From positions 5,381,173 through 5,445,172 of the forward strand of contig NZ_CP031598.1 in NCBI RefSeq assembly GCF_008728195.1: a stretch of DNA of 64,000 nt, read 5' to 3'. The notes under the pieces are model-generated. The model was not told where the DNA came from and searched no databases. It saw only the letters and a program-made list of their open reading frames with translations. Source of the DNA: Roseovarius indicus. GTDB lineage: Bacteria; Pseudomonadota; Alphaproteobacteria; Rhodobacterales; Rhodobacteraceae. Positions within the stretch are counted from its first letter, which is position 1, and every line of letters begins with the position of its first letter. The position numbers and the translations under genes are program-made. Shown piece by piece: positions 1 through 2,411 of this stretch.

Positions 1-1112
1 GTTGTGCCATTGATCTGTCCCGCAAGATACAAGCCCGGAACGGATTTCACGGCTAACGTCGCATCGAGCGCTCGAGGGTCAACGTAGTCATACTCAATCG
101 CATAGCCAGGCTGAAGGATTCGAGCGGCTTCCAGTCCAACAATTGACCGTACATAGTCTTCCTGAACCTCCTCTGGCAACGACGTGGAAATCCCGTTGGG
201 GTAAACCACGTTATCAGACAGGCTTTCCGGCTCGAGAAAGATCTGGTGCGAGGTCTTGTCTGCAAAACGCACGATCTTGTCCTCGATCGAGGGACAATAG
301 CGCGGGCCGACGCCATCGATATGGCCTCCATACATCGCAGACCGGTCAAGATTCTGTCTAATGATCTCGTGTGTCGTTTCATTCGTGTGGGTGATGCCGC
401 ATGACACCTGGCGCGCGGAAATCCCCTCTGACATGAAAGAGAACAGAACCGGCTCTTCATCCCCCGGCTGTTCTTCAAGAACGTCCCAGTTAATCGTTGC
501 TCCGTCCAACCTCGGGGGCGTTCCTGTCTTCAATCTTCCGAGGTTCAATCCGAAAGTGTCAATCCGCTCCGCAAGCTTGACGGATGGCCTATCTCCCATG
601 CGACCACCTGGCCGCGATACGTCCCCGATATGTATCACGCCACGGAGAAACGTACCCGTTGTAAGGATGACGGCGCCGGCCCTGACCTCGCTCCCATCCG
701 CGAGGATGACGCCCGCCACGCAATCACCTTGCATGATGAAATCCGCAGCTTCGCCCTCGATGATATCGAGGTTCGGCTGAGCAGTCATCTCTGCAAGCAT
801 TTCTTCCCGATAGATCTTTCTGTCCGCCTGCGCACGCGGGCCTTGAACAGCCGGGCCTTTCCTGCGGTTGAGAAGACGAAACTGGATGCCGGCCTTATCC
901 GCGACACGCCCCATGACCCCATCCAGCGCGTCGATCTCACGCACGAGATGGCCCTTGCCCAAGCCACCGATCGCGGGGTTGCAAGACATGACCCCAATAC
1001 CGTCTCGGGAAAGAGTGATCAGCGCTGTGCGCACGCCCATTCGTGCAGCTGCATGCGCTGCATCCGCGCCAGCGTGACCGCCGCCAATTACGATGACGTC
1101 AAAATGTTTCAC
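1..1112 (-). CDS. mnmG: MnmG (GidA), tRNA U34 carboxymethylaminomethyl modification enzyme, 3' end missing
   Basis: FAD-dependent enzyme that with MnmE builds the cmnm5 group on wobble uridine 34 of certain tRNAs. About 370 codons lie in the window; the usual length is near 620, so the C-terminal 40% lies beyond base 1. Translation from the GTG at 1112 gives a dinucleotide-binding GGGHAG motif at residues 9-14, then [21 protein letters not shown] and [10 protein letters not shown], all typical of MnmG. The GTG is the only start that keeps the N-terminal FAD motif intact, with AAGGAG about 12 bases upstream. The start codon is embedded in a perfect parS palindrome. mnmE ends 12 bases upstream, so the two partner genes form an operon. 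Family assignment is very secure; only the truncation is due to the window edge. Confidence 0.96.
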
Positions 1113-1120
1113 GTGAAACA
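1105..1120. promoter_or_regulatory. parS: parS centromere site bound by ParB
   Basis: The 16-base perfect palindrome TGTTTCACGTGAAACA is identical to the canonical chromosomal parS consensus shared by Bacillus and alphaproteobacteria such as Caulobacter. It overlaps the GTG start codon of mnmG (1112-1110) and lies about 3.2 kb from the putative oriC. ParB loads here as a CTP-dependent clamp for origin segregation. In relatives rsmG-parA-parB follow mnmG, which would be just left of base 1; that is inference. Confidence 0.9.
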
Positions 1121-1124
1121 CTCC

Positions 1125-2411
1125 TTACTTCCCGAGGCAGAAGCTCGCGAAAATCTCGTCCAGAACATTCTCGATATCGATGCGTCCTACCAGAGAATCA
1201 AGAGCACGGATAGCTGTCCGAAGCTCCTCTGCCGCAAGGTCGGCACAGTCTTCCCCCATGGGCAGCAGCTGCAAGGCAGCCTCAAGAGCAACCATACCGC
1301 GCCCCATGGAATCCTTGTGACGTTGGCGCGTTGCTACACCACTCCCGGTAGCCCGGGCCGCCAAGGTCTCCCTGATACGATCCACGAGACCTGTCACCCC
1401 CTCGCCGGTTTTCCCGGAAATCCCGTTCCCTACGTCTGAATTCAGATCAGACTTGGCGGTCAAAACGATGTCATCGTCCATCGGTTGGATTTCCGGAACT
1501 TGCCCAGGCTCAACCAAAAAGACGCGAAGGTCAGCTTGATCAGCACGGTTCCGCGCTCGATCGATCCCGATGGATTCCACGGCATCTTCAGTTTCGCGAA
1601 GGCCGGCGGTGTCCAACAACGTTACCGGCAATCCGCCAAGATCCATACGTACCTCAATAACATCCCGAGTTGTTCCCGCGTGTTCTGACGTAATCGCAGC
1701 ATCCCGCCCCGCCAGGGCATTGAGCAGCGTCGACTTCCCAACGTTGGGAGCTCCAACGATCGCTACTTCGAACCCGGTGCGAATACGTTCCGCAATACCA
1801 ACTCCATCGATTTCTCTTCGTAGCTCTTCGACCACGTTCATAACCAGCGAACCAACTTCCGGCGACACGTCGACCGGAACCTCTTCATCTGCAAAGTCAA
1901 TCGTGGCCTCGAGAAGCGCAGCCGCACGAATCAAGCTACGCCGCCAAGCCTCGGCCTTTTGACCAAGATCGCCGGACAGCACGCGCATCGCCTGACGCCG
2001 CTGAGCCTCGGTTTCCGCATCGATAAGATCAGCCAAGCCCTCAACCTGAGCAAGGTCCAACATACCGTTCTCAAGGGCTCGTCGGGTAAACTCCCCTGCC
2101 TCAGCTGGCCTCAACCCATCCATGGAGCCCAATTCATCCAGCAATGCCGTGGTAACGGCCGTGCTGCCATGAACCTGGAATTCAGCGGAAACCTCTCCAG
2201 TAAAACTGCGATCCTGCTCGAAAGTAAGGATCAAGGCTTCGTCCAGTCGCCGGCCTTCTCGATCCCGCAGGACACGTAAAGACGCCTGGCGTGCAACCGG
2301 TACATCTCCGCAAAGCGATCGCACGGCATCATGCGCGGCCGGTCCCGACACGCGGATGATCGCGACACCGGCTTTGCCCGGCGCCGTCGAAAGAGCGAAA
2401 ATCGTGTCCAT
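1125..2411 (-). CDS. mnmE: MnmE (TrmE), tRNA modification GTPase
   Basis: Potassium-activated GTPase partner of MnmG in wobble-uridine modification; 428 residues, slightly short of the E. coli protein, as is common in alphaproteobacteria. The N-terminal tetrahydrofolate-binding domain starts MDTIFALST. The embedded G domain shows the P-loop GAPNVGKST, switch [10 protein letters not shown] and a TAKSD in place of the usual NKxD specificity motif. The C-terminus ends FCLGK, carrying the Cys needed for tRNA modification (C425). The ATG at 2411 fits the family N-terminus. rho starts upstream on the same strand (25-base gap) and mnmG follows after 12 bases. Confidence 0.97.

Follow-up and report, generated by a model that had tools for sequence, protein, structure and literature searches.

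A parS site overlapping the predicted start codon of mnmG in Roseovarius indicus and across the sampled Rhodobacteraceae

Results

In this study, we analysed a stretch of 64,000 nucleotides of Roseovarius indicus DNA (the window), in which mnmE and mnmG follow each other on the minus strand. mnmE (1125..2411; NF003661, E 9.6e-159) ends with a TAA stop (1127-1125) that adjoins the Shine-Dalgarno (SD) sequence GGAG (1121..1124, minus strand). About 12 nt past mnmE begins the 5' part of mnmG (1..1112, minus strand; TIGR00136, E 2.8e-248), and the gene continues outside the window to C1:5380422, C1 being a 5.4-Mb contig that begins with dnaA (C1:16-1362). A perfect 16-bp parS, TGTTTCACGTGAAACA, which has no strand, occupies 1105..1120, and the GTG at its centre (1110..1112, minus strand) is in frame with mnmG. 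The junction reads GGGAAG TAA GGAG TGTTTCAC GTG AAA CAT TTT GAC GTC ATC GTA ATT GGC on the minus strand, which gives the order mnmE stop, SD and parS with its central, in-frame GTG. A sequence-only reading of this DNA had described a perfect parS overlapping a GTG start of mnmG, and this description is confirmed by the exact 16-mer and by the frame.

The 16-mer was the sole match in the window at up to 3 mismatches (shuffled windows contained 0.13 matches on average). At up to 2 mismatches the whole genome (6.17 Mb, 5 contigs) contained only one parS besides the mnmG-start site, located in rsmG, and no site for a control pattern, parS read backwards. Base composition predicts about 0.0003-0.0007 perfect parS per genome. 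A chance occurrence is ruled out by the window shuffles, the genome-wide count and this expectation. The second parS (C1:5380387-5380402) is located 1.9 kb from the mnmG-start site and is read as GVSRET, including the residues VSRET. The end of C1 is about 63 and 65 kb away from the two sites (62.9 kb from the mnmG-start site), which are thus near the replication origin if, as we infer, the chromosome is circular. Several weak matches to the DnaA model, short and equal-scoring, were seen on C1, C2 and C4; they resemble copies of one mobile-element ATPase.

MnmG, MnmE, RsmG and Rho pass their NCBIfam cut-offs, and ParB passes the ParB domain model TIGR00180. The ParA-like ORF passes none of the models compared and was named from resemblance and position. 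parA and parB are encoded downstream of both parS on the same strand, about 2.4-4.2 kb from the mnmG-start site. ParB aligns over residues 6-245 with PDB chain 6t1f (E 5e-84), which we take to be Caulobacter ParB. In this alignment, positions 173, 179, 184 and 201, which discriminate between parS and the Noc site, are occupied by R, S, T and G. ParB proteins of the parS type conserve R173 and G201, according to the available part of PMC7383237. The Noc model TIGR04285 scored best for this ParB (233 bits), yet remained under its cut-off of 315. That the palindrome is a Noc binding site (NBS) is ruled out, since the Noc-type residues Q173, K179, K184 and R201 are absent from ParB. In Rhodobacter sphaeroides, ParB1-YFP serves as a marker for the origin of chromosome 1, as stated in the accessible portion of PMC6315104.

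A protein search detected mnmG in 101/101 genomes from the order, all labelled as belonging to the family of the window and representing 54 genera, and all of these loci were read. The nearest relative of the window's MnmG was that of Roseovarius halotolerans (88% identity, among 103 named loci among the matches listed), and the 12 best matches were all labelled Rhodobacterales. The sequence-only reading had suggested comparing mnmG 5' ends in related genomes; parS was kept there in all 101 family genomes with at most 2 mismatches (92 perfect, 8 with one mismatch and 1 with two). All sites were in one frame and began 35 (43 loci), 38 (8) or 41 nt (50) before the codons for the anchor pattern GG[GA]HAG, which missed none of the 181 loci to which it was applied. 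Across the 100 loci with at most one mismatch, 15 of the 16 parS columns had an entropy of no more than 0.08 bit, and column 1 had 0.38. Among 39 flanking columns of the same loci, 37 had 0.6-1.9 bit, one had 0.47 and one, located in the conserved motif, 0.08. Codon 2 of mnmG was AAA in 99/101 loci, whereas AAA makes up 44% (948 of 2162) of the Lys codons elsewhere in the mnmG sequence that was read. Codon 3 was CAT in 84 loci, CAA in 12, CAC in 4 and CAG in 1; its last base, which lies outside parS, is thus free.

At a threshold of one mismatch, exactly two parS were found in 86 of the 101 genomes, three in 14 and none in one (G006). In 10 of the three-site genomes the extra site was separated from the pair by 80 bp to about 5 kb; G039 and G066 have it at a distance of about 71 and 130 kb, and in G085 and G030 it is on another contig. 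The rsmG-side site was present with up to 2 mismatches in 100/100 loci that reach rsmG (94 perfect), and the 101st genome (G029) has a perfect second site. In 96 of these 100 loci it is read GTT-TCA-CGT-GAA-ACA, codons that account for 29, 13, 20, 51 and 20% of their synonyms in mnmG, and all 100 have the frame of this site open across 30 codons. The 101 family genomes are kin and not independent, and no probability was attached to these counts. Judged by these columns and codons, it is the DNA letters, rather than the protein, that are conserved at the mnmG start.

Both parS are altered in G006, where they share a GAAGC right half. Its mnmG start carries GGTTTCACGTGAAGCA (locus L099, G006:C18), and its rsmG carries a new palindrome, TGCTTCACGTGAAGCA, which turns V and T of VSRET into A. 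The ParB of this genome has ALDK where four genus mates have ALNK and 13 of the 20 ParBs examined have GKSR. The altered position is among the parS contacts given in the part of PMC7383237 that was available. Site and ParB may have changed together in this genome.

At E 1e-60, a class-wide search recovered mnmG in 123 of 152 genomes. Two of these belong to the family, and 80 of the other 121, mostly the better-scoring ones, were read. Putative starts were assigned by a rule of thumb (the nearest in-frame ATG, else GTG or TTG); this yielded ATG in 75 of the 80 outsiders. Under this nearest-ATG rule, none of the 80 starts on the parS GTG. Their parS (up to 2 mismatches) lies upstream of the putative start in 57/80, 47 of these being shown to lie past the mnmE stop. 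The count depends on the reach of the search (38/80 at 120 nt, 58/80 at 280 nt with one overlapping site included), and in 22/80 parS was absent within 280 nt at up to 2 mismatches. The phases relative to mnmG were 20, 15 and 23. In one outsider (L140) the putative ATG takes its A from the final base of parS, which is another way of overlapping centromere and start, and in six (L126, L138, L139, L149, L169 and L170) mnmG and the parS GTG share an open frame, so that this GTG could be the start. The distance from the mnmE stop to GG[GA]HAG had a median of 44 nt in the family (stop found in 101/101), versus 115 nt outside (59/80).

The rsmG-side site was found with up to 2 mismatches in 69/80 outsiders and therefore probably predates the family. 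As most outsiders have their parS ahead of the putative start, the likely history is that the spacer of the family became shorter by about 70 nt and that the GTG within parS was taken over as start codon, the direction of change being the one we infer from the distribution among these genomes. One family locus (L067, genome G008) has a perfect parS on the mnmG start and, at a distance of 80 bp, another perfect one in the spacer, 7 nt past the mnmE stop. As it has both a spacer site and a start site, capture of a second parS copy, instead of spacer loss, is possible.

We also scanned named genomes for parS sites no more than 20 nt away from the mnmG motif. At least 118 stretches were recovered; among the matches listed, 116 were in frame and 2 out of frame, and 93 were labelled Rhodobacterales. 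Two Cereibacter species also have parS arranged in this way. A gap of this size favours in-frame matches, and for this reason the excess is not taken as evidence. In-frame cases elsewhere, among the matches listed, came from Zetaproteobacteria, Magnetospirillum-like bacteria, Methylocystis, Bauldia and contigs labelled Marinimicrobia. A FastTree phylogeny was calculated from 120 MnmG, comprising 23 of the 25 listed loci not labelled Rhodobacterales, 17 of the 101 family loci and all 80 others. On this tree, in which 57 of 117 inner branches are weak, the in-frame state requires 10 changes, at least 7 of them on well-supported branches, and 6 of the 23 loci fall within the family clade. The non-family rows from the scan were selected for the in-frame state, which concerns frame and not start use, and most are metagenome bins or single-cell genomes. 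The mnmG of a contig labelled Woesearchaeota (L297) groups with those labelled Marinimicrobia, and the contig is probably mis-binned.

Discussion

Two in-frame GTG codons could start mnmG in the window, and with either choice the start codon overlaps parS. The mechanical ORF begins at the upstream GTG (1121-1119, minus strand), whose first G also belongs to the SD and whose TG is part of parS. A start at this upstream xTG would give a protein beginning MFHVKH, with parS covering codons 1-6 just within the gene and the start overlapping only the parS edge. An ATG, GTG, TTG or CTG occupies the position in 94 of the 101 relatives, and a zetaproteobacterial locus (L256), which looks like an ATG start at the parS edge, has GAGGAG 5 nt before ATG-TTT-CAC. 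We nevertheless regard a start at the upstream codon as decidedly unlikely. In the window the SD overlaps that codon and stands 8 nt before the central GTG; the last SD-like 4-mer before the central GTG likewise ends 8 nt (75 loci) or 9 nt (9 loci) away in 84 of the 101 family loci, with 2 more at 6 nt, 1 at 10 nt and none within 22 nt in 14. Seven relatives have a codon without start function at the upstream position (GCG in 3, GGG in 2, ACG and AGG in 1 each). In five (L060, L081, L093, L095 and L099) no upstream in-frame ATG, GTG, TTG or CTG is found before a stop, and in the window no in-frame ATG, GTG or TTG lies between the central GTG and the GGGHAG motif. Frame, SD spacing and the relatives that have no other upstream start thus favour the central GTG as the better candidate; because 96 of the 101 relatives do have another upstream in-frame start, the assignment rests on SD spacing. 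The further proposal of the sequence-only reading, that one sequence serves both ParB loading and translation initiation, is strongly supported by the conservation in 101/101 genomes together with this evidence for the start, while ParB loading and use of the GTG remain predictions from sequence.

In the mRNA, the palindrome is predicted to fold into a 6-bp hairpin (-3.9 kcal/mol), the parS arms forming the stem and the loop containing G and U of the start codon. The stem predicted for this genome runs on through the SD, which pairs with UUUU after parS (1101..1124, minus strand), and an extension of at least 4 pairs was found in 21 of the 101 family loci. The palindrome might then also mask the SD as a hairpin and so tie the translation of mnmG to the departure of ribosomes from mnmE. 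The short distance between the genes would suit this, as the mnmE stop lies 8-14 nt before the GTG in 88/101 family loci, and the SD region is predicted to be less accessible in the family than outside (mean unpaired 0.28 vs 0.45). However, the start codon itself is predicted to be more open in the family (0.60 vs 0.47), and canonical pairing of the four SD positions with the bases that follow parS was seen in 80, 69, 62 and 70 of 101 loci, against shuffled means of 83.0, 71.1, 67.5 and 69.6. A masking role is unlikely on this balance, and a selected RNA element that extends parS into the SD is unsupported, since there was no covariation and SD pairing was at or below that with shuffled partners. 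The predicted hairpin is regarded as a by-product of parS, perhaps opened by ribosomes finishing mnmE. That translation or the protein, and not ParB, is what preserves the 16 letters is hardly credible. The SD, spacer and start necessarily adjoin or overlap parS, but the identical 16-mer is retained in rsmG in a different frame, synonymous positions are fixed where adjoining residues vary, and outside the family parS precedes the start in all three phases.

ParB bound or sliding at the site could in addition repress transcription of mnmG or of downstream rsmG-parAB in a feedback loop. Both parS lie upstream of parAB, and for Pseudomonas aeruginosa the accessible text of PMC5521831 reports that native ParB represses genes beside the intergenic parS3 and parS4, and that ParB excess reduces mRNA near all four parS. 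Native ParB, however, left genes by the intragenic parS1 and parS2 unaltered (same source, same portion). Such repression therefore appears very unlikely to us, and the suggestion of the sequence-only reading that ParB hinders mnmG transcription is made less likely by these intragenic-site data, which, in the part of the source at hand, lean against a strong effect. We would likewise give only an outside chance to the idea that the overlap is more than tolerated, with MnmG output tuned by DNA-bound ParB or by the hairpin that parS forms in the mRNA. If it were true, tRNA modification, together with rsmG-parAB, would be tied to the state of the centromere, and there would be a reason why several lineages have an in-frame parS at the mnmG start.

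Taken together, we consider it highly probable that the site is one of two parS and doubles as the translation start of mnmG, and that a shrinking spacer led to capture of the GTG, whose letters have since been held by selection on parS. ParB, encoded downstream in the same cluster, would bind the palindrome as duplex DNA, and, by its kinship to well-studied ParB proteins, would load as a CTP clamp and slide outwards to form an origin-proximal partition complex. In the mRNA the same letters would provide the spacer between SD and start, the GTG start and most of codons 2-3. In the ancestral state, parS would have lain in the mnmE-mnmG spacer ahead of an ordinary ATG start; in the ancestor of the family the spacer would have shrunk and the GTG at the parS centre would have become the start. 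Thereafter, selection on parS would have forced MnmG to keep a GTG start, the Lys codon AAA and a codon for His or Gln.

That parS can lie within genes is already known. The accessible part of PMC5815017 describes Caulobacter parS sites within essential or costly genes, and in Caulobacter crescentus and in P. aeruginosa, with parS1 and parS2 in recF, parS near the origin is likewise found inside coding DNA (PMC5815017 and PMC5521831, as far as their available sections go). In contrast to these species, the family studied here has parS on the start codon in every sampled member and only two parS in 86/101 genomes. Other alphaproteobacteria carry parS at the same genes, in the mnmE-mnmG spacer and in rsmG; the rsmG-side site is common to both groups, whereas the site at mnmG precedes the putative start in most of those outside the family and falls on the start within it. 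Among the publications listed by the literature search, none dealt with parS on a start codon, and no accessible one combined parS, rsmG and ParB. The family-wide coincidence of parS and start codon is broader than first stated, and is not a new kind of system.

Across the family, a single sequence appears to be under two unrelated constraints, with the centromere dictating the start codon and the N-terminal residues of a conserved enzyme. The constraint from parS would explain the KH or KQ N-terminus of the family's MnmG, and the locus illustrates how a centromere in a spacer may be absorbed into a gene. It also offers a natural test of whether, at a single site, gene expression and the loading of ParB get in each other's way. 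Most genomes of the family carry two sites, each part of a reading frame, which would make the family a small natural centromere for experiments.
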